Assembly (NCBI RefSeq): GCF_000526795.1
Contig: NZ_JAGT01000001.1
Coordinates: 3,551,640 to 3,615,639, forward strand
Direction of reading: 5' to 3'
Source: Ruminococcus flavefaciens AE3010
GTDB lineage: Bacteria > Bacillota > Clostridia > Oscillospirales > Ruminococcaceae
DNA: 64,000 nucleotides
Shown: positions 1,740 through 52,020 of the stretch, one piece after another
How the letters are laid out: every line of letters begins with the position of its first letter
Position numbering within the stretch: the stretch's first letter is position 1
Position numbers and translations under genes: made by a program
Notes under the pieces: model-generated
Told to the model about the DNA's origin: nothing
Databases searched by the model: none
What the model saw: only the letters and a program-made list of their open reading frames with translations

Positions 1740-2558
1740 ATGAGTATATTCACCTGTCCTGTTTGCGGCGAAAAGCTGGATATAACGGGAAATACATACA
1801 TCTGTCCTAAACGTCACAGCTTTGACAGGGCAAAGAGCGGCTATGTGAACCTGCTGCTGTCGAAGCATATGGGCAAGACTGTTCACGGCGACAACAAGCT
1901 CATGGTGCAGGCGAGGAGAAGCTTTCTTGACAAGGGCTACTACTCTCCGCTGTGTGATGCTCTGTGCGAAGCGGTCAGCGCCAACATAAAAGGTAATACA
2001 ATTCTTGACGCGGGCTGCGGAGAGGGCTATTATACCACCGCAATAATTGGTAAGCTTCAAAGTGAAAACAAGGCTGCCGAGGTGTACGGCATAGATATTT
2101 CCAAGACTGCTGTGGAGTACTCGGCAAAGCGCTGCAAGTCCGCAGAGCTTGCGGTGGCAAGCGTGTTCCACATCCCTGTTTCGGAGGGCTCCTGCGACAT
2201 GCTGGTAACGCTTTTTGCACCCTACTGCGGCGAGGAGTTCCAAAGAGTACTGCGCAAAAATGGTATAATGATAATGGTGATACCATCAGAAAATCACCTG
2301 TGGGAGCTTAAAAAAGCTATATATGACACTCCCTATAAAAACGAGGTGAAGCCCTATGAGTTAGAGGGCTTCGGGCTTGTTGACAGGAAGCGCATTACCT
2401 ATGAGATGAAGCTTGAACAGCAGGAGGACATCGACGCCCTCTTCTCAATGACACCTTATTATTACAGGACGGGCAGGGAACAGCAGGAGCGGCTGGCTGC
2501 ACTGGGACAGCTCACCACAACAGCTGATTTTGAGCTCCTTGTATACCGCAAATTTTGA
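1740..2558 (+). CDS. rlmA: 23S rRNA (guanine-N1)-methyltransferase, RlmA family
   Basis: 272 residues, the usual family length. The N-terminus carries the RlmA zinc finger: C6, C9, C22 and H26, followed by the FDRAKSGYVNLL segment typical of the family. A class I SAM-binding motif, DAGCGEG, lies at 90-96. RlmA enzymes methylate N1 of G745 or G748 in helix 35 of 23S rRNA; which of the two cannot be told from sequence alone. The ATG at 1740 lies 9 bp after the TrmK-NIF3 stop and is preceded by a GAGGTGGGA Shine-Dalgarno that overlaps that stop, so the genes are probably co-transcribed. No terminator was seen directly after the gene; a structured region follows. Confidence 0.9.
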   Translation: MSIFTCPVCGEKLDITGNTYICPKRHSFDRAKSGYVNLLLSKHMGKTVHGDNKLMVQARRSFLDKGYYSPLCDALCEAVSANIKGNTILDAGCGEGYYTTAIIGKLQSENKAAEVYGIDISKTAVEYSAKRCKSAELAVASVFHIPVSEGSCDMLVTLFAPYCGEEFQRVLRKNGIMIMVIPSENHLWELKKAIYDTPYKNEVKPYELEGFGLVDRKRITYEMKLEQQEDIDALFSMTPYYYRTGREQQERLAALGQLTTTADFELLVYRKF

Positions 2559-22317: not shown

Positions 22318-22887
22318 TCATTCATACTGGGCAAGGATACGCTGCGCCACCTCAAGACGGGTCTGGCGGTTGTTCATTGCCTGTTTTTCGATGTATTTAT
22401 GAGCCTGTGGCTCTGTGAACTTCAGATACTTCATAAGAGTGGTCTTGGCGCGGTTGATAGTGCGCATCTCCTCGATACGGCTGAGTATATCCGCGCTTTC
22501 CTTTTTTACGCCTGCCATACGGGCACGAGCCGAGAGGACGAGCCTGATAGTACGCTGTAATATCTCACGGGTATACGGTCTGGAAATGACGTTTATACCG
22601 CTGTCTGAAACACGGTCTGCCACTTCGTCGGCAACGTCGCCGCCGCATATGAGTATTATGCCTGCCGAGGTAGTCTCGGCTATCATTTCCGCAAGCTCCT
22701 GTCCGAATTCGTCGGGCAGGGGAGTGTTTATTATGACCAGCTCGGGCTCGCTTTCGTTTTTGACAAGTCTGCGGGCTTCGCTTCCGCTTACGGCTACTGC
22801 TGTCCTGCCGCAGCCCTCTATGCGCAGGAGCTGCTCGGCAAGCTCCGATATCTCAGCTCTTGCTGATACAATGAGCGCTCTGTCCAT
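22318..22887 (-). CDS. ANTAR-domain RNA-binding regulator with a degenerate receiver
   Basis: 189 residues. Residues 1-120 have a response-regulator-like fold, but the phosphoacceptor position in VIINTPLP is N54, not Asp, so phosphorylation there is unlikely. Residues about 130-186 form an ANTAR domain (INRAKTTLMKYLKFTEPQAHKYI), which in NasT, EutV and AmiR binds paired hairpins in leader RNA to prevent termination. The gene starts 8 bp after the glutamine-synthetase-like gene and is clearly co-transcribed. ANTAR proteins next to glnA are known in Clostridia (GlnR-type antiterminators). The signal may come by direct protein contact with that neighbour; this is inference. Confidence 0.9.
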   Translation of the reverse strand: MDRALIVSARAEISELAEQLLRIEGCGRTAVAVSGSEARRLVKNESEPELVIINTPLPDEFGQELAEMIAETTSAGIILICGGDVADEVADRVSDSGINVISRPYTREILQRTIRLVLSARARMAGVKKESADILSRIEEMRTINRAKTTLMKYLKFTEPQAHKYIEKQAMNNRQTRLEVAQRILAQYE

Positions 22888-22895
22888 TGATTACC

Positions 22896-24191
22896 TCACA
22901 CGAATTTGAAATAGGACTCTTCCTCAAATTTATCCTTGTCTGCTGCAAGCTCATAGTCGCGGAGCTGTCTGTCCAGCTGAGCGAAAATGCTGCTCCTTAT
23001 CTCGGGAGAAAGAGTACGCTTTACGAAGTCGCTTTCCTTTGCGATAGCGGCAGCCTCCTCAAGAGTTGAGGGGAGCTTCTGGAACAGGTCGCAGTTTTCG
23101 CCGCTGTGCATTGCACTCTCGAAAAGTGAGGAGTCGCCTGCGCGGATACCCTCTATACCTGCGGCAAGAATGAGCTTGAAGGTGATATAAGGGTTACAGC
23201 AGGCGTCTGCGGAACGCAGCTCGATACGGGGAGTTATTCCCACGGGTTTTGGTACGCGGATAAGCTGAGCGCAGTTTTCCGACGACCAGTTGATGTATTT
23301 AGGCGCAAAGCCTATGCCGAAGCGCTTGTAGGAGTTTGTGGTGCTGTTGAGAAAAGCGGTTATCTCCCTCATTCTGCCAAGAATACCCGATATGAAGCAC
23401 TTGCCCTCAAAGGGCATATTCTCGGTATCATTGCCGATGATGTTCTCGCCGCCCTTTTTCACGCTTATGGATATGCTGAGAGCGCTTCCGTGCTCGTCGG
23501 GGAGCGGCTTCGGCATGAACGATGCGAAAAGACCGTTCTGTGCGGCAATGGACTTAACTACGGTCTTGTAATGTACCATATTGTCGGCAGCGGTTATTGG
23601 CTCGCTCTCGCGGAACTCTATCTCGTTCTGTGCGGGACCGTGCTTGTGGCAGGAGCTCTTCGGGCTCATGCCCATTTCCTCCAGGGAGAGACATATCTCA
23701 CGTCTTGCGTTCTCGCACTTGTCAAGGGGAGCAACGTCAAGATAGCCGCCCTTGTCGTGGGGTATCTTTGTAGGCTCGCCCCGCTCGTCAAGCTCAAAGA
23801 GGTAAAACTCGCACTTTGTGCCCATTTCGCAGGAATATCCGTCCAGTCGTAGCTGATTGATGTAGCTGGTGAGCTCGGTACGCATATCGCCCACGTAGTC
23901 GCTTCCGTCGGTGTTTTTCAGCGAGCAGAAGAAGCGGACAACGCGTCCCGACTTAGGTCTCCACGGGAGAACGGAAAGCGTTGATATATCGGGCACAAGG
24001 AGCAGATCGGAGCAGCCCTCGGCGATGCATGAAGCATCGAAAGGTATGCCGTACTCAAATGCTCTCGGCAGCTCGTTTGGCATGATAGCCACGTTTTTGA
24101 GATTGCCGAACATATCACAGAAAGTAAGTCTTATAAATTTTACGTCGTTCTCTTCAACGAATTTCAGTATCTCTTTAGGAGAAAAGCTCAT
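22896..24191 (-). CDS. Glutamine synthetase-like protein lacking key catalytic residues
   Basis: 431 residues, aligned by eye with Bacillus GlnA over nearly its whole length (IRLTFCDMFGNLKNV, DKGGYLDVAPLD, FMPKPL, NSYKR, IELRSAD). Several catalytic residues are missing. The first Glu of the GPEPEFF motif is K126 (GTKCEF); the Glu of HHEV is K183 (CHKHG); the metal His of GSGMH is S239 (GSALS); and the flap Glu of GYEAP is absent (GF-AP). E128, E190, E324 and R326 remain. It is therefore probably not an ammonia ligase and more likely a sensor or regulatory homologue. It lies 8 bp upstream of the ANTAR gene. The start has GGGGG seven nt upstream. A second, functional GlnA must exist elsewhere if the cell makes glutamine. 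Confidence 0.88.
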   Translation of the reverse strand: MSFSPKEILKFVEENDVKFIRLTFCDMFGNLKNVAIMPNELPRAFEYGIPFDASCIAEGCSDLLLVPDISTLSVLPWRPKSGRVVRFFCSLKNTDGSDYVGDMRTELTSYINQLRLDGYSCEMGTKCEFYLFELDERGEPTKIPHDKGGYLDVAPLDKCENARREICLSLEEMGMSPKSSCHKHGPAQNEIEFRESEPITAADNMVHYKTVVKSIAAQNGLFASFMPKPLPDEHGSALSISISVKKGGENIIGNDTENMPFEGKCFISGILGRMREITAFLNSTTNSYKRFGIGFAPKYINWSSENCAQLIRVPKPVGITPRIELRSADACCNPYITFKLILAAGIEGIRAGDSSLFESAMHSGENCDLFQKLPSTLEEAAAIAKESDFVKRTLSPEIRSSIFAQLDRQLRDYELAADKDKFEEESYFKFV

Positions 24192-24231: not shown

Positions 24232-24921
24232 TTATTTTTCATTAAGGCATTTAGTCCTGTTGCAATTACTGCAATTTAAGCCAGGACACTTCAAAACAGG
24301 TTTATCCATTTCATCATTCAGATCAAATCTATGAATTACCCTTTGGTTCTTGTATTCTTTTTCAAAAACATTATTATCATCATAGTCGTCACAGTTTTTA
24401 CCACATATAAGGCATTTGTCATTCTTATATATATGTTTGCATTGCATATTACATATAGAGCATACTCCATTTATAAAGTTATGCCTATGATCAGGATCAA
24501 TAATCCCACAAATAGTACACTTTGAATCCACATACTTTATATGCATACATTCGATATTGCAAATAGTACATTTTCCGTCTTTATAAATATGCTTGCATCT
24601 AATATTACATATTTTACATCTTCCGTTTTGGTAACTATGTTTATGTGAAGGATCAATTTGATCACAAACGGTACATCTATAATTATAGTAAGAATGTTTG
24701 TGAGTTGGATCAGTTTTACCACATTTTGTGCATTTGCCATTTATGTATACGTGTATATGTTCAGGCTCATTTATATTTTCATACGTAGAGGGTGTAGTAT
24801 TATCGACATTGGTATTTTTTTGAAAAATATCACGTAATAAACTTATTATTAAAGGCAGTATAGGTAGGATTATTATTATACATATAATTAAAGTGAAAGA
24901 ATTTGATAAAAAATCAGCCAT
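24232..24921 (-). CDS. Membrane-anchored protein with seven zinc-knuckle-like repeats
   Basis: 229 residues. An N-terminal hydrophobic helix (about 8-30) anchors it. Residues about 55-185 hold seven tandem units of 16-20 residues, each H-x(5-6)-C-x-x-C. Two flavours occur: CxxCGxxDPxHxH (units 1, 2 and 5) and CxxCNxxCxH (units 3, 4 and 6). Each can supply a Cys/His zinc site. A last cluster, CPGLNCSNCNRTKC, sits at the C-terminus. I know the HxYxxGxCxxCGxxDPxH unit from anonymous Firmicute proteins but no function. Its codons are AT-rich compared with its neighbours, which hints at transfer. It ends 40 bp before the glutamine-synthetase-like start, so a shared transcript is possible. Confidence 0.72.
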   Translation of the reverse strand: MADFLSNSFTLIICIIIILPILPLIISLLRDIFQKNTNVDNTTPSTYENINEPEHIHVYINGKCTKCGKTDPTHKHSYYNYRCTVCDQIDPSHKHSYQNGRCKICNIRCKHIYKDGKCTICNIECMHIKYVDSKCTICGIIDPDHRHNFINGVCSICNMQCKHIYKNDKCLICGKNCDDYDDNNVFEKEYKNQRVIHRFDLNDEMDKPVLKCPGLNCSNCNRTKCLNEK

Positions 24922-27098: not shown

Positions 27099-29837
27099 TT
27101 AATTGCTTGCGTAAGTTATGCGCTTGTTGTTTACAAGTGAGCTTACGGTGGAGTTCTGTATCTGGACATCGCCGCTGTTTGTGCCGATATCCTTTGGATT
27201 TCCTGCGTTGACAGTCATGGACACCTTTGAGTCGATGATAGTGAGATTTCCAGCACCTGCTGCGTCGCCGATGCCTGTTACCTCGTCGCCCTCGGAGTCA
27301 ATAGTAATCTCTGCATTCTTTATCTTAGTGTTCACACTGCCTTTCATAGCACCGATACAGGAGTGCTTGGCGGAACGCATTTTCATATTGATCTTGCCCT
27401 GCTTGATGTAGATGCTGCCCTCGCCGTCTTCGAGAACGCCGATGCCTACTGCCTGAGCGCCTGTGCAGGACATGGTGATGTCAGCTCCCGAGCTTATGGT
27501 AGCAATGCCCTTGCAGCTTCCGATACCTGTTACCTTGATACCCGAGATAGTGATATCCAGCTTGCAGTCCTCGCCGATGTCGATATTGGCGTCGCCGTTG
27601 AAGCTGCCGACAGCAAGACCGTTATGTGAGTACATGAATATCTTTATATTGCCCGAGCGCAGGTCGATATCCGAGTCGTCATCGTTATGGCCGCCGCCTA
27701 TGCACATGGACTCGACGCTGTTGGAGATTATCTCCAGATTTCCGCTGAAATCAATGATTATATCGCCGTAGCCGTGGTCGTAGTCGTTGCCGATACCGAT
27801 TCCCTCAGAGGCATAGCAGTCGATAGTCAGGTCGCCCTTGCCGCCCAGTACGAACTGGGAGCCCATAGGTACATAGATGCCCGAGTAGCTCAGCTTGTTG
27901 GTCTTGACAACATTGAGCTCCAGGCGTGCGTACTCGCCCACGGTGATAGTTGGCTTGCTGTTGCCGCTTATGATGTTGCAGTTCTTCAGGGTCAGCTCGC
28001 AGCTGTGATTGTCCATGATGGAGATATTCATCTTCACGGGCTTGTCGGGATCGCCGACTATAGTGAGCTTGCTCTGATAAACGTGGATATCGGTGTATTT
28101 TTCCAGCGCCAGCTTCAGCAGATCGATCTCCGTGTCGTTCTGGGCTGCGTATATCTTCTTTACGCCGCCGGGACGTGTTTCGAGATTGGTCTTGATTATC
28201 TCGTCCTTTATATCTGCGGAAATGCTGTTGAGGAGCAGGGGCTTTGGCTTCGATGTGTAATAGCCCTGCACAAGGTCAACTCCGAGACGGATAACGGTTT
28301 TCAGCTCCTGCACTGTCTCAACGCCCTCAGCAAGGGATTTGAGCTGATTCTCGTGGCAGAACTCGATAACAGATGTTACCAGCTGCTGCTTTTTCAGATC
28401 GTTCTGGATATCGCTTATGAGTGAACGGTCTATCTTGATGTAATCCGGTGAATAGTGCAGCAGATTGGACGAGTTGGAATAGCCTGTGCCGTAGTCGTCG
28501 ATAGCAAGCGTGGTATGTGCGAAGCCGCAGCGCTTTTTGAGCAGCTCTATGCTCTCGGCTGTAGCCGCAGATTCCTCCACTATCTCGATGACTGTCTTTT
28601 CAAGGAGCTCGCCGTATGTAAGGTACAGCTCGTTGAAGTCCTCGTCGCTGAGGAGATTGTTTGAAAGGCAGTTTATAAAGAGCTTGCGGTTTTCAAATAC
28701 CTGCTGATTATCGCTGAGGAGCTTCATGGTGTTGAAGAAGGTCAGCTTCTCGATAGCATACAGGTCATTCTGAGCGGCAGCTATTTTCAGTATCTGATTG
28801 GGAGTCATCTTTATATCGCCGATGGTTCTCATGAGAGCCTCATAGCCCACTATCTCGCCCTTCTGGGTCTCAACGATAGGCTGTAGGTGATAGGTGAGGA
28901 GATTCTCCTGCACGATACGTGAAAAGGTCTGTGCATTGCGGTAGGAGTCCTTTTCGTGGACGTAGTTTTCCTCCGAGAACCAGTTGATAACGGCTCGTTT
29001 TGCGGTCTTGGCTTCAAAGAGAGCAAATTCCGAATAATTCACCAGCATATTGAAGTCCGAGGCTTCCTCGGGATAGGAAGCGCAGCCTATGGACAGACTT
29101 ATCCTGCTCTTGTCGGAGATGTCGATTATCTCGCCGAAATCGTCAGTGAGGATACAGTTCTGCACAGCCTCGTCCATGCTGTTGAGGATATTGTATATGC
29201 TCATCTTGTCGCTGTCGCAGAAGAAAACGCATATCTCATAGTTGGATTTTGAGCCGATTATGAGAGTATCGCTGGCAAAGCCTTTCAGCGCTTCCGCAAC
29301 TGATGTGATACAGCTGTTGGTGTTGTCAACAGTTAGATATGAGCCCAGCTTGTCTATGCCGTTTATGTAGATAGTGGCAAGGCAGCCGTGCTGTATATCG
29401 GTGAGTATCTGCTTTATTTTCTGTGAGAACGACGGGAATGAGGGCAGTCTTGTAATGGGATCGTACTCCACAAAGGCTTTTTTGTCGCTGAGCTCTGTGA
29501 TCTGGCGGGTGAAGTCCTGAATAAAGCCCAGCCATTCGTCGCTGCTCTCATAGATGTTCATTTTTATATAACGAGTTGTATTTCCGTCAGTAAACTTGTA
29601 AATATGCTTCTGCCCCTCTAAAGGGCATTTTGAGATCTTTTCAAGAAGATTGAAGAACTCGAATTCGTTGATCTTTTCACTCGGGCAGCCGAGCATATGA
29701 CAGGCGGATGAATCAAGATATGCAGCCTTGTCCTTTGCGATGTATGTAAACGCACCAATATTACCGACAAACTGCTGGAATACCTGCCAATCATGGCTTA
29801 ACACGGGCGGAGTCTGGCTAAAATCAAAAATACTCAT
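27099..29837 (-). CDS. Cyclic-di-GMP phosphodiesterase (EAL) fused to a beta-helix domain
   Basis: Start ATG 29837 with AAAGGAG five nt upstream; a GTG two codons earlier overlaps that site. 912 residues, with no signal peptide or membrane segment. Order: PAS-like region (about 15-115), degenerate GGDEF domain (about 120-290, with SNYEI in place of GGDEF), EAL domain (about 300-540), then about 320 residues of repeating short strands and Gly/Asp turns (IGIGNDYDHGYGDIIIDF, GSGNI-type units) that look like a right-handed parallel beta-helix. The EAL catalytic set is intact: EALMR 333-337, DDYGTGYS 447-454, EGVET 504-508, QGYY 524-527. It should hydrolyse c-di-GMP in the cytosol. The helix resembles carbohydrate-binding helices of secreted proteins, which makes its place here odd. 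Confidence 0.85.
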   Translation of the reverse strand: MSIFDFSQTPPVLSHDWQVFQQFVGNIGAFTYIAKDKAAYLDSSACHMLGCPSEKINEFEFFNLLEKISKCPLEGQKHIYKFTDGNTTRYIKMNIYESSDEWLGFIQDFTRQITELSDKKAFVEYDPITRLPSFPSFSQKIKQILTDIQHGCLATIYINGIDKLGSYLTVDNTNSCITSVAEALKGFASDTLIIGSKSNYEICVFFCDSDKMSIYNILNSMDEAVQNCILTDDFGEIIDISDKSRISLSIGCASYPEEASDFNMLVNYSEFALFEAKTAKRAVINWFSEENYVHEKDSYRNAQTFSRIVQENLLTYHLQPIVETQKGEIVGYEALMRTIGDIKMTPNQILKIAAAQNDLYAIEKLTFFNTMKLLSDNQQVFENRKLFINCLSNNLLSDEDFNELYLTYGELLEKTVIEIVEESAATAESIELLKKRCGFAHTTLAIDDYGTGYSNSSNLLHYSPDYIKIDRSLISDIQNDLKKQQLVTSVIEFCHENQLKSLAEGVETVQELKTVIRLGVDLVQGYYTSKPKPLLLNSISADIKDEIIKTNLETRPGGVKKIYAAQNDTEIDLLKLALEKYTDIHVYQSKLTIVGDPDKPVKMNISIMDNHSCELTLKNCNIISGNSKPTITVGEYARLELNVVKTNKLSYSGIYVPMGSQFVLGGKGDLTIDCYASEGIGIGNDYDHGYGDIIIDFSGNLEIISNSVESMCIGGGHNDDDSDIDLRSGNIKIFMYSHNGLAVGSFNGDANIDIGEDCKLDITISGIKVTGIGSCKGIATISSGADITMSCTGAQAVGIGVLEDGEGSIYIKQGKINMKMRSAKHSCIGAMKGSVNTKIKNAEITIDSEGDEVTGIGDAAGAGNLTIIDSKVSMTVNAGNPKDIGTNSGDVQIQNSTVSSLVNNKRITYASN

Positions 29838-30018
29838 ACTCACTCCTTTTTGCTTGCGGATACAAAGGATATTTCCGCAGCGTGCCTGACTTCTGACGGT
29901 GAACAGGCGACCGTGATAACGTACATTTTATACTCTTTTATTATACCACATATTTTTTAAAATAGCAAGACTCGCGGTGAAAACAATAATGTAAATTTTC
30001 TGCGTTATTGAGCACAAA

Positions 30019-30042
30019 AAAGCCGCCATTTCAGGCGGCTTT
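30019..30042 (-). terminator. Terminator of the dgt-dnaG-rpoD operon
   Basis: AAAGCCGCC (30019-30027) pairs with GGCGGCTTT (30034-30042); TTTTTTG follows in the minus direction, 21 bp beyond the rpoD stop. Confidence 0.92.
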
Positions 30043-40398: not shown

Positions 40399-42672
40399 TT
40401 ATCTCTTGGTATTGATCTCACGCCTTACGTTCTGCTCAAAGAAATCCTGTATTTTCTCGGGGGGCATGGGCTTTCCGTAGAGATAGCCCTGTCCGTAGTC
40501 ACAGCCTGCCATGCGCAGGATAGACTCCTGTTCCTTGTTTTCGATGCCCTCTGCGATAGTTTCTATGCCTTTGGATTTTGCTATGCGTATTACGGCTGAA
40601 ACTATCTCGAATGAGATCTTTTCGTGCTCGATATCGATAATGAATGATCGGTCCAGCTTCAGCAGAGTAATTGGGAGTATCTGGAGATATTTCAGTGAGG
40701 AATAGCCTGTGCCGAAGTCGTCCATGGCAAGCTTTACGCCAAGCTCGCGGAGACGGTTCATCTGGTCGACCGCAAAGTCTATGTCCTTCAGCGCAAGAGT
40801 CTCGGTGAGCTCGACCTCCAGCCACTGAGGCGGCAGAGCCGAACGTGCAAGGGCTTCGTAGACCTTGTCTTTAAGGTCGGTCTGATAGAAGTCAGATGAC
40901 GCGAAGTTTATGGACATAACTATAGGCGGATAGCCCATTTTCTGCCAGAGCTTGTTCTGGCGGCAGCCCTCGTTCAGTACGAACTCGCTTATCTTTCCGA
41001 TAAGGTGAGAGCTCTCTGCGATAGGCACGAATGCATCGGGAGTAACTATGGTGCCGTCGGGCTTTATCCAGCGGATAAGCGCTTCAACGCCCATTATCCT
41101 GCCTGATGCAAGGTCTATCTTAGGCTGATAGTAGAGCTGGAGCTCGTTGTTGTCGATAGCAAGTGCAAGAGCCTTTTCAAGCTCGGTATCGCCTATGATG
41201 GAGTCGTGCATACTGGGTTCATAGCCGCAGATGCTGCCCTGATTGCTGTCGTTGGATTTGAGCGCGAACTCAGCATGCTCCATTACCTCAAGGAAGGATC
41301 TGCCGTCCTCGGGCATTTTGGAGTAGCCTGCCGAGCAGGTAAGGCTTATGGAAGCCAGCTCGTCAACTGCAAGCTTTGCGAACTCGTCCTGTATGGACTT
41401 CACAGTTCTTGTGGGCATTTCGTCGTCGCCGTAGTCTCTCAGCAGAAGTGCGAAGTTATCGCCGCTTATTCTGGCTGCAAGACCACCGGGAGTAACGAAT
41501 TTATACAGTATATGAGCAAAATTTTTCAGAATGTAGTTACCGTTTGAATAGCCGCAGGTATCATTTATGATATGGAAGCGGTCAATGTCGAGAACGATTA
41601 TCCAGAATGAATAGTCCAGTACCTTGCAGGAGTCGTATATCTCCTGTCCTGTTACCACAAGCTTGTTGCGGTTGGCTATCTCCGTTACCTCGTCCATGTA
41701 CGCAAGACGCTCGATGAGGATATCCTTTTCGTGCTCCTCGGTCACATCGAGAACAGCTCCGCCGAAAAGGGGCAGGCTGTTGCCTGTACCCGTAATTGAC
41801 TTGAAGCGGTGTGAGAACCAGCGGTAAGCCCCGTCGGCAGTCCTGAGCCTTATCTCGATATTCTTGATGTCGGAGATGTCGCGGCTGCGGACAGCTCCGT
41901 CAAACTGTATCCTGTCGTTGGGGTGTATCAGAGCGCGGTATTCGTTGATATTGACGGTACCGCTCTTTAGTCCCAGCATATTGACCATTTCAGGTGATAC
42001 ACGGAACACCTTCTTGTCGGTGCTCATAACGAGACCTATTTCTGCAAGCTCCATAGCCGAGTGGAAGAAATCGTTGGCATTGGCGAGATTTACTCGCATT
42101 TTTTTCAGCTCTGTGAGGTTGAAGCCTGTACTCAGGTAGACTGAGCGTCTTCTGTATCTCTTGACCTGTGAAGTGCTCCATGCGATAGAAACGAATGCGC
42201 CGCTTGGATTGCGGAACGTTGACTCGTAGGAGTTACTGTCGACTATCTTGTTGAGAGCAGTGGGGTCGGGAGTGTTTATGCCGAAGGCTGTCCAGACGCC
42301 CTCCTTTTTGTCCGAGTAATCCGCGGTTATGCCCAGCAGGTCGCGAAGCTTCTTGTTGATATATACATATTCAAAGTCGTCCGACCAGATTATCATTTCC
42401 GTGTTGAGGTTTTCGGTTATCTTGATGATCTCCTTTTCGTCAACAGAGGTCTTCCTGTTCTTATATATCCAGCCCGAGATCGCGAGAATAAGAGTTGCGC
42501 ATACCATTGTGCATACGTAAATGATAAGTGCCATCCTGGCGTTTTCGGGGCAATTAATGCAGTAGCCTATAACAATTGCACTGGCAATGACGATTATGAG
42601 TGCGGCTGCGAGCGGATTGAAGCTTCTGGTACGTGTGTTGCTTTTTGTGGTGGGGTGTTTCTTGTTATTCAT
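40399..42672 (-). CDS. Membrane PAS-GGDEF-EAL protein (probable c-di-GMP phosphodiesterase)
   Basis: Start ATG 42672 with GGGAGG 9 nt upstream (a GTG two codons before is too close). About 757 residues. Two N-terminal membrane helices (about 20-40 and 46-67), two PAS-like regions (about 80-190 and 205-325), a GGDEF domain whose motif reads SGDNF and is therefore probably inactive, and an EAL domain (about 505-745). EAL residues are intact: EALIR, ELTET, DDFGTGYS, KLDRSFI, AEGIEN, GQGYLYGKP. It likely breaks down c-di-GMP in response to a membrane or PAS signal. It is divergent from the response-regulator gene at 42916. Confidence 0.93.
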   Translation of the reverse strand: MNNKKHPTTKSNTRTRSFNPLAAALIIVIASAIVIGYCINCPENARMALIIYVCTMVCATLILAISGWIYKNRKTSVDEKEIIKITENLNTEMIIWSDDFEYVYINKKLRDLLGITADYSDKKEGVWTAFGINTPDPTALNKIVDSNSYESTFRNPSGAFVSIAWSTSQVKRYRRRSVYLSTGFNLTELKKMRVNLANANDFFHSAMELAEIGLVMSTDKKVFRVSPEMVNMLGLKSGTVNINEYRALIHPNDRIQFDGAVRSRDISDIKNIEIRLRTADGAYRWFSHRFKSITGTGNSLPLFGGAVLDVTEEHEKDILIERLAYMDEVTEIANRNKLVVTGQEIYDSCKVLDYSFWIIVLDIDRFHIINDTCGYSNGNYILKNFAHILYKFVTPGGLAARISGDNFALLLRDYGDDEMPTRTVKSIQDEFAKLAVDELASISLTCSAGYSKMPEDGRSFLEVMEHAEFALKSNDSNQGSICGYEPSMHDSIIGDTELEKALALAIDNNELQLYYQPKIDLASGRIMGVEALIRWIKPDGTIVTPDAFVPIAESSHLIGKISEFVLNEGCRQNKLWQKMGYPPIVMSINFASSDFYQTDLKDKVYEALARSALPPQWLEVELTETLALKDIDFAVDQMNRLRELGVKLAMDDFGTGYSSLKYLQILPITLLKLDRSFIIDIEHEKISFEIVSAVIRIAKSKGIETIAEGIENKEQESILRMAGCDYGQGYLYGKPMPPEKIQDFFEQNVRREINTKR

Positions 42673-42915
42673 AGGCACCGCCTCCCTTCATTTACAATTA
42701 TCCAAGTACATTATAGCAAAAATTACTGAAAATGTCAATTACAAATTTACGGACTCTAACAAATTTGATAAAAATGACGGAAATTCACATAAATATTTCA
42801 CGTAGTCTACACTTTTATCTGATATAATGTTATAATATAAACGTAAGACAGCGAAAAGCTGTTCGTTGTATGTTTTAGACATATTGGTTAAATACAAATA
42901 CGCGGAGGTAGAAAT

Positions 42916-49855: not shown

Positions 49856-50052
49856 TAATAATATTCGGATAATTCTTCCCCCGAATGTTGATATGTTCAT
49901 AATTTTGTGGTATAATAATATAAATATATGTTATGTTTACGTAATTTTTGTATCAAATCATTATAAATGCTGCTTTTATCATAGTTTAAAGCCGAAGCAC
50001 TTCAATTCATTTTTTCTGTAAACATCATTTTTATCCAAGGGGGGGGACAGAG

Positions 50053-52020
50053 ATGATCAGATATACGGATTTCTGTTTTGGTGTGGCACTTTCCGCTTTA
50101 TTGATATGTCTTGGAAATCTCACGTTCACTATACTGGACGGTCATACACGAAAGCCTCAGAACCGCGTTTATATGTCGCTTCTGATGCTGCTTGCCGTCA
50201 ACGCTGTCTGTGAGATGATAAATGTACGCATCGGAGCATTTGACATGAGCTCTGATGTTGCTTTTATGACAACACGGTCGGCAAAATATGTGTATTTTCT
50301 CAGCCATGCCCTCATAGCGCCTGTGCTGTACTACTACCTTTCATTTGTCATCGGACGCTCCGTGGGGACAGGCTTTCGGTTCGGGAGCAGGACTCTGCTG
50401 AAGGAGAAGCTGCGTATAATTATCCCGTGGACAGTGGTTATCATTTCCGAGCTTGCTATCGCACTTAATCCGCTGACTCACTGGTGCTGGTATTACACAG
50501 ACAGCAGGATATTTCACAGAGGCTGGGGAGAATATGTCTTTCTCTATACCTTTTCGTTCCTGTGGATAGCTGCCGCTTTTATCATGTGCATGAGGTCGTG
50601 GAATATCCTGTCAAAGGGACGCAAGCGCTCTATCGCCATATGCTTTCTGCTTGCAGCGGTGGGTATCTGTGTGCAGCTCATGGTGCCTCAGATGAGAGTG
50701 GAGATACTCATGGAGGCAATAGGCTTCTCGGGGGTGCTGCTCTTCATTGAAAATGAGGACGACCGCAAGAATGTTGAGCTTGACACTTATAATTCCGCAG
50801 CTTTCTCCCTTGACCTTGCTGCAACTCTTAAAAACCGCATACCTGTAAGGATACTCATACTCCGCAATATACGCTTCGATAAGACAGCAAATACCGTTGT
50901 TTTCGGAAAGATGAACCGCGACCTTATAATAAAGCAGGTTTCGGATTATCTCGGAACTGTTGTGCAGCGCTACTTTATCTACTCTGTGGGCTACGGAAGA
51001 TTTGTGGTAACACTGTACGATCATACCGCCGAAGAAGCCCATGCGCTTGCGGAAAAGGTCAGCAGGCGATTTGATGAGCCGTGGCTGGTTAACGGAAGTG
51101 ATATTATCCTTACTTCAAGGATAATGCTTGTCAGCGTCCCCGACGGTGCGAAAAATGCAGAGGAAGTCAACTACATAGCCGAGTGCCCAATACCCGAGCA
51201 GGTGCAGGAGCGTATAATCGAGGGCAAGTCACTTGACTGGATAATACGCCGTGCGGCTGTGGAAAAAACAGTCACACGCGGTCTTGAGGACGGCTGCTTC
51301 GAGGTCTACTATCAGCCTACATACAATATGGACAAGACCCTCCACGGTGCAGAAGCGCTTCTGCGCATGAACGACAAGGATATGGGAATAATTTACCCCG
51401 ACGAGTTCATTCCTATCGCCGAGCAGCTTGGTATTATAGATGTTATTGACGAGTTCGTGCTGAAAGAGGTGTGCAAGTTCATATTCACGGGTATCCCTCA
51501 GAAATGCGGAATGGACTGCATAAACGTCAATCTCTCCGTTCTGGAGTGCATGAAGGAGGGCTTTGCTGAATATATCAGCGGTGTCGTCGAGTCGGAGGGA
51601 ATACGCAAGAAGATGATAAACTTTGAGATAACCGAGTCCGTTGCCGCAAAGGACTATACCCACCTTGCCGACGTTATCGAGCAGCTGAAGCAGGAGGGCT
51701 TCCAGTTCTCTATCGACGATTACGGAACAGGCTATTCAAATATGACCTCGCTGTTCTCTCTTGGCGCTGATATCATAAAGATAGACAAGAGCATACTCTG
51801 GAACGCCGAAAAAAGCGATCTTGGCATGACGCTGCTGAAAACCTCTATCGATATGGTGCATAAGATGGAGAAAAAGGCTCTTATGGAGGGTGTTGAGACA
51901 GAAGAGCAGATAAATATACTCAGGGAGCTTGGCTGCGAGTATTTACAGGGCTATTACTTCTCAAAGCCGCTTCCGAAAGCTGAGTTCATAAAGCTTATCG
52001 AGGGAAAAACAGTTATATGA
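50053..52020 (+). CDS. Seven-helix membrane EAL-domain protein (probable c-di-GMP phosphodiesterase)
   Basis: 655 residues. The first 240 hold about seven membrane helices (MASE or histidine-kinase 7TM-like sensor). A degenerate GGDEF region follows (about 255-395; the motif position reads VGYGR). The EAL domain (about 410-650) is complete: EALLR, NVNLS, FEITES, DDYGTGYS, IKIDKS, EGVET, QGYYFSKP. A long G run (GGGGGGGG) near the start may vary by slippage but lies outside the frame. Likely a membrane-gated c-di-GMP hydrolase. It is monocistronic with its own terminator. Confidence 0.92.
   Translation: MIRYTDFCFGVALSALLICLGNLTFTILDGHTRKPQNRVYMSLLMLLAVNAVCEMINVRIGAFDMSSDVAFMTTRSAKYVYFLSHALIAPVLYYYLSFVIGRSVGTGFRFGSRTLLKEKLRIIIPWTVVIISELAIALNPLTHWCWYYTDSRIFHRGWGEYVFLYTFSFLWIAAAFIMCMRSWNILSKGRKRSIAICFLLAAVGICVQLMVPQMRVEILMEAIGFSGVLLFIENEDDRKNVELDTYNSAAFSLDLAATLKNRIPVRILILRNIRFDKTANTVVFGKMNRDLIIKQVSDYLGTVVQRYFIYSVGYGRFVVTLYDHTAEEAHALAEKVSRRFDEPWLVNGSDIILTSRIMLVSVPDGAKNAEEVNYIAECPIPEQVQERIIEGKSLDWIIRRAAVEKTVTRGLEDGCFEVYYQPTYNMDKTLHGAEALLRMNDKDMGIIYPDEFIPIAEQLGIIDVIDEFVLKEVCKFIFTGIPQKCGMDCINVNLSVLECMKEGFAEYISGVVESEGIRKKMINFEITESVAAKDYTHLADVIEQLKQEGFQFSIDDYGTGYSNMTSLFSLGADIIKIDKSILWNAEKSDLGMTLLKTSIDMVHKMEKKALMEGVETEEQINILRELGCEYLQGYYFSKPLPKAEFIKLIEGKTVI

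Follow-up and report, generated by a model that had tools for sequence, protein, structure and literature searches.

A gene in the 64,000-nucleotide stretch of Ruminococcus flavefaciens AE3010 DNA analysed here (the window) encodes a protein, P0001, that by its sequence should be an EAL-type c-di-GMP phosphodiesterase with a predicted C-terminal beta-helix, representing a new architecture for a known enzyme class. In the relatives of P0001 the core of EAL domain and beta-helix is constant while the part before the EAL domain is variable, and we rate the chances as about even that the beta-helix is a rigid cytosolic docking or self-association scaffold for the phosphodiesterase. The following parts were assigned to P0001:

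27099 to 29837, minus strand: whole coding sequence of P0001 (912 amino acids), with PAS-like, degenerate GGDEF, EAL and beta-helix parts
29508 to 29726, minus strand: residues 38-110, tentative PAS-like input domain (pLDDT mostly 50-68)
28995 to 29468, minus strand: residues 124-281, degenerate GGDEF domain with SNYEI at the GGDEF site
28245 to 28925, minus strand: residues 305-531, EAL domain, assigned from the Pfam match and the catalytic positions
28053 to 28244, minus strand: residues 532-595, comprising a short alpha-helix, a hinge modelled with low confidence (554-559) and the beta-helix N-cap
27117 to 28154, minus strand: residues 562-907, beta-helix, predicted to be right-handed and parallel

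The EAL domain matched PF00563 with 159.7 bits (gathering score 31.3), and P0001 retains all ten putative catalytic positions (E333, N389, E418, E421, D447, D448, K468, E504, E507 and Q524), a residue set taken from RocR that we presume to comprise the catalytic and metal-binding positions of EAL domains. Across 88 aligned EAL domains these positions were intact wherever the residue was present, the sole exception being an E-to-D change at 421. Close orthologues were sought at 80 loci, six of which were omitted as incomplete or not found, and the resulting alignment of P0001 with 74 orthologues contained single exceptions at three of the ten positions. None of these 75 sequences has a GGDEF motif at the corresponding site of the upstream domain; 65 of them read SNYE, and P0001 has SNYEI in place of the GGDEF active-site motif of diguanylate cyclases (PF00990). 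Among 45 upstream GGDEF domains of relatives with the EAL-helix core, the pattern GG[DE]E[FYL] was kept in 4 and absent from the searched stretch in 41. Since the catalytic residues are kept and the GGDEF site is lost, the phosphodiesterase of P0001 is probably active and its cyclase domain inactive. Residues 38-110 had no Pfam match, and a LacI-type Peripla_BP_3 domain (PF13377) was absent from P0001 by Pfam.

The predicted beta-helix spans about 345 residues. The model of this domain (pLDDT 91, pTM 0.87) is a right-handed parallel beta-helix, and its fold agrees with solved right-handed beta-helices in VIA-align. A Foldseek search of the helix against the PDB returned nothing at E≤1e-3, so that the fold call relies on the confident model and on VIA-align; weak rows to the cytosolic proteins SufB and SufD had E values of 0.45-1.3. 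Autocorrelation of hydrophobicity gave no clear peak for a coil period in the helix. The full-length model of P0001 had a pTM of 0.45 and low confidence at the hinge (554-559), and we therefore see no sign of a fixed arrangement of the EAL domain and the helix. In a fold search with the full-length protein, the best 50 matches listed were all of GGDEF/EAL type. The first-pass annotation had described a complete EAL domain fused to a beta-helix and had proposed structure prediction of the C-terminal region as a check; the bit score, the catalytic residues and the helix model agree with that description.

EAL domains usually terminate the protein chain. P0001 shares the EAL domain and the putative catalytic residues with the phosphodiesterases BlrP1, RocR, MorA and DosP, and its upstream GGDEF domain is arranged as in tandem proteins, but it differs from them by adding a large beta-helix after the EAL domain. 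Indeed, in 47 PDB sequence matches of P0001 the best stretches stop at or before residue 541. YkuI (2bas) is among these matches, and it resembles P0001 in having a further domain C-terminal to its EAL domain. A census published in 2022 on the input domains of c-di-GMP proteins (PMC8846402) describes this YkuI_C domain as presumably intracellular, a further likeness, and as Cache-like, unlike the predicted beta-helix of P0001. The census names Periplas_BP and YkuI_C, and its main text does not contain the terms beta-helix, right-handed, pectate or bactofilin (PMC8846402). No description of an EAL plus beta-helix architecture was found among the papers listed from the open-licence PubMed Central literature, in line with the earlier remark that no described signalling protein with this layout was known; one article in which both 'beta-helix' and 'EAL' are mentioned (PMC12750041) was, going by part of its text, unrelated to these proteins. 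In the same open-licence literature, 'Ruminococcus flavefaciens' and 'c-di-GMP' occurred together in seven papers but in no title or abstract, and c-di-GMP control in these Clostridia seems to be little studied.

The helix is widespread in the genus. A helix-only query matched 23 of 40 genomes including the own genome, i.e. 22 of the 23 other genomes of the same genus, whereas none of 16 genomes representing other families of the order was matched. When a profile of the helix (alignment A1) was used, matches were obtained in 65 of 297 genomes in a sample of the family (61 strong, four weak), in 18 of 295 in a sample of the order (12 of them strong and confined to this family), in 16 of 391 in a sample of the class (13 strong, with two other families contributing nine genomes) and in 4 of 398 in a sample of the phylum (3 strong, none outside the class). 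These counts each include the own genome and come from overlapping samples, all taken within the phylum. Among the best 80 of 86 relatives, 75 are named as Ruminococcus, the nearest being R. flavefaciens MA2007 with 96% identity; the nearest named carriers in this set are mostly Ruminococcus, many of them from the rumen.

The strong matches from the family, order and class samples were combined with the three own loci into an architecture set of 93 loci with one helix frame each, for which a gene split into two pieces was counted once and a match in G013 was omitted as being the same gene as L030. An EAL domain precedes the helix in 89 of these 93 frames. This architecture search had been set beforehand as a check, and an assembly artefact can be rejected because the fusion recurs in many genomes. 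Three of the four helix frames lacking an EAL domain (L172, L218 and L237) are cut by a contig end. The fourth, at 1953-2528 (minus strand) of L236, is an orphan helix fragment of 192 residues; none of the neighbouring frames listed has an EAL domain, and the fragment is probably a decayed copy. The distance from the EAL end to the start of the helix profile is usually 7-10 residues, and 20-55 residues in a few relatives.

The N-terminal parts of the 89 proteins were labelled by means of a hydropathy threshold and small profiles made in-house. For the 8 EAL-bearing proteins that were also scanned with Pfam, the EAL, GGDEF and LacI-type assignments concur. No sensor or GGDEF domain was recognised in 31 proteins (two of which have one hydrophobic stretch), 31 are of the GGDEF-EAL-helix type and lack a LacI-type domain (two hydrophobic stretches in 16 of them and one in 2), and 27 carry a LacI-type domain, 12 of them without and 15 with GGDEF. 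The genome of strain AE3010 itself encodes two paralogues with the same core, namely L002 (702 residues), which has no recognised input domain, and L003 (1114 residues), which by Pfam has a LacI-type Peripla_BP_3 domain in front of the EAL domain and helix. The gene beside this LacI-type paralogue (1-1155 of L003, minus strand) encodes an exported-type protein with a stretch that looks dockerin-like by eye, a label that is our assumption; its position next to L003 may be due to chance in a cellulosome-making species.

The near-constant linkage to an EAL domain together with the variable N-terminus makes the helix a fixed partner of the phosphodiesterase, and a partner that is always joined to the catalytic domain is less likely to be a sensor than a scaffold for docking or assembly, or an output. 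Such constancy amid varying inputs would also be expected if the EAL domain served mainly as a c-di-GMP sensor and the helix as an output that binds a target upon c-di-GMP binding or hydrolysis. Trigger phosphodiesterases are known from E. coli. With the catalytic residues kept almost everywhere, turnover is favoured, though a trigger role is still compatible with their retention, and we hold this explanation to be rather unlikely.

The two parts of the protein appear to have a long common history. In a tree, 88 helix-bearing EAL domains fell on one side and seven EAL domains without helix from the same genome on the other, with a support of 0.61 and a small outgroup. The distances between EAL domains and those between helices were correlated with r=0.91, as compared to a maximum of 0.14 in 1000 permutations. 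The tree grouping and this correlation suggest that the fusion is old and that both parts were inherited together, but species history common to both parts would account for some of the co-divergence.

Cellular location was judged from hydropathy. The highest 19-residue hydropathy in P0001 is 1.14, and the protein has no hydrophobic stretch that would export the helix. Of 88 relatives with the EAL-helix core, only one (L222) has a membrane-type stretch within or after the EAL domain, and where GGDEF-EAL-helix relatives have two hydrophobic stretches, both are N-terminal and precede the GGDEF-EAL-helix part. Judging from P0001 and these relatives, the helix should be cytosolic. For the same reasons an exported phosphodiesterase is not favoured.

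With respect to conservation, the helix consists of two unequal halves. Among the 75 subfamily sequences, at least 95% identity was observed at 49% of the sites in the N-proximal half (596-740), at 50% of those in the EAL domain and at only 28% of those in the C-proximal half (741-905); the linker and cap (532-595) were the most conserved of the segments compared, with 59% of sites. In the 88 family members, helix sites with at least 75% conservation are occupied almost exclusively by glycine, by hydrophobic residues or by residues of turns, the main exceptions being Y563 and N647, and a polar/aromatic set typical of carbohydrate binding is not conserved across these members. This preponderance of structural residues argues against a family-wide sugar or catalytic site. 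It would fit a helix that has no specific partner and merely stabilises the protein or acts as a passive spacer, and the weaker conservation of the C-proximal half points the same way. However, a mere spacer would hardly require an N-proximal half that is as conserved as the catalytic domain, or a fusion that is present in three families of the class, and we regard this explanation as quite improbable. Within the P0001 subfamily, polar residues are kept in turns of the N-proximal half, namely D609, N610 and H611; N684, D685 and H688; N718; and H738. We infer from the strand boundaries in the model that some of these residues stack on one edge of the helix. The polar residues mark the conserved N-proximal half as the surface most likely to make contact with either a protein or a ligand. 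Points against a scaffold are the full-length model, with its lack of a fixed arrangement, the weaker conservation of the C-proximal half, and the subfamily polar residues, which could equally be a ligand site.

The ligand could be an intracellular saccharide, such as an oligosaccharide, a storage glucan or a nascent polymer, the binding of which to the helix would gate the phosphodiesterase. The fold is like that of beta-helices that act on polysaccharides or serve in adhesion, the polar residues are retained in the subfamily orthologues, and one of 16 helix sequences had a sub-threshold match to Cthe_2159 (PF14262) at E=0.037. Yet P0001 itself has no match to this family at E≤10, no polar/aromatic set is conserved across the family, the helix should be in the cytosol, far from fibre, and relatives already bear LacI-type input domains at their N-termini, through which a sugar input is more plausible than through the helix. 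Gating by a saccharide is accordingly an explanation to which we give little credence. Altogether, the initial interpretation was partly upheld: the fusion, the predicted helix, the probable cytosolic site of the chain and the option of a scaffold, which fits the data best among the options offered, were retained, but we found no support for fibre sensing by the helix or for its proposed binding to a sugar polymer.

No Pfam family matched the helix above the cut-off, and no match to the bactofilin family, which we take to be PF04519, was found at E≤1 among the 16 helix sequences scanned. Membership of the helix in the Cthe_2159 or bactofilin families was rejected on these grounds. Bactofilins are cytosolic beta-helix scaffolds and as such resemble the role proposed for the P0001 helix, despite the absence of a Pfam match. 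The pectate-lyase-like helices of AlgG, AlgE4, tailspikes, Vag8, PfbA and SRRP, which are exported or viral, have about 6-14% identity to the P0001 helix. Unlike such right-handed beta-helices, the helix of the P0001 family has no conserved catalytic set, and a carbohydrate-active enzyme is not favoured, as catalytic-type residues are not conserved family-wide.

The helix was found to be related to exported-type proteins of Clostridia, in keeping with the previously noted likeness to repeats of secreted proteins. Its profile matched five of the 13 loci examined (L241 at 1.9e-36 with six repeats, L069 at 1.1e-16, L242 at 6e-9, L240 at 8.3e-8 and L246 at 3.6e-4), and these five share the pattern N-L...GI-VP...L-I-G-G-L...GIG with the P0001 family. 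The other eight, L070 included, fell short of E 1e-3, though they had been matched in the genome scans. Unlike P0001, the exported-type loci have long frames, several with N-termini that by eye resemble signal peptides; a simple pattern search found no EAL-type motif in L069 and L070, and L070 also had no EAL hit in Pfam. These profile matches show homology between the helix and the repeats in long Clostridia proteins of exported type. A helix sharing ancestry with an exported-type repeat would thus now be working inside the cell.

The genomic context of the gene was compared among relatives. In 80 loci of relatives, the P0001-type gene stands before ychF in 76 of the 76 loci with room, and rpoD lies upstream in 48 of the 69 loci with room; one of the 80 loci has it on the opposite strand. 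Between rpoD and the P0001 gene, the following sequences were noted:

30016 to 30042, minus strand: terminator-like hairpin and T run after rpoD, seen by eye and not listed by the scan that gave the promoter-like match
29940 to 29968, minus strand: promoter-like TTGCTA-17-TATAAT with extended -10, a consensus match
29841 to 29850, minus strand: ribosome-binding-site-like AAAAGGAGTG before the P0001 ATG, seen by eye

These three sequences weakly suggest that the gene is transcribed separately; promoter-like matches in the region numbered 4, compared to 5.3 in shuffles. An operon with rpoD is not favoured in view of the terminator-like hairpin. Elsewhere in the window there are two more EAL-containing frames, at 40402-42687 (minus strand, 762 amino acids) and 49990-52017 (plus strand, 676 amino acids). 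At 22321-24191 (minus strand), a gene for an ANTAR-domain response regulator adjoins a glutamine synthetase gene. The frame at 24235-24921 (minus strand) encodes a protein of 229 residues that is hydrophobic near its N-terminus and contains several H-x-H ... C-x-x-C units, zinc-ribbon-like by eye; it had no Pfam match at E≤0.01.

Outside Ruminococcus, no universal neighbour of the EAL-helix genes was observed in 304 neighbouring frames. Recurrent neighbour sets of 6, 5 and 4 loci were each restricted to one architecture group; the other recurrent neighbours were ychF in the genus and a LacI-type/GGDEF set of 12 loci. In the sensor-poor subtype of about 870-910 residues, a gene for a LacI-type protein with GGDEF comes next on the same strand at 4 of 15 loci (L250, L251, L252 and L263). 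The motif reads GGDEF in three of these downstream proteins and GGDEL in the fourth, and Pfam confirmed the domains for one of the four. At the remaining 11 loci no such gene was present within the stretch fetched, and L197, a sixteenth sensor-poor locus, has a LacI-type gene downstream. The four neighbours may possibly form cyclase-phosphodiesterase pairs with the EAL-helix proteins, and there is modest support for a repeated link between LacI-type sensing and proteins of this kind.

Under the scaffold reading, the N-terminal part would serve as the input, being PAS-like with an inactive GGDEF domain in P0001 and LacI-type, membrane-anchored or unrecognised in relatives. The EAL domain would hydrolyse c-di-GMP, and the beta-helix would place the enzyme beside a partner or set its oligomeric state, with the N-proximal half as the contact surface. 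P0001 would then show a fold at work in the cytosol that is otherwise found mainly on exported proteins, and an EAL-helix core with exchangeable inputs, LacI-type ones included, would amount to a sizeable unannotated c-di-GMP family in Clostridia. Going further, and speculatively, such proteins might constitute a new class of spatial c-di-GMP regulators, in which an exported-type helix, now cytosolic, docks or assembles the phosphodiesterase in local patches, and interchangeable N-terminal domains read sugar and other signals, so that in fibre-degrading Clostridia of the gut c-di-GMP would fall at one selected site only; we put this forward as a distant prospect for the family.
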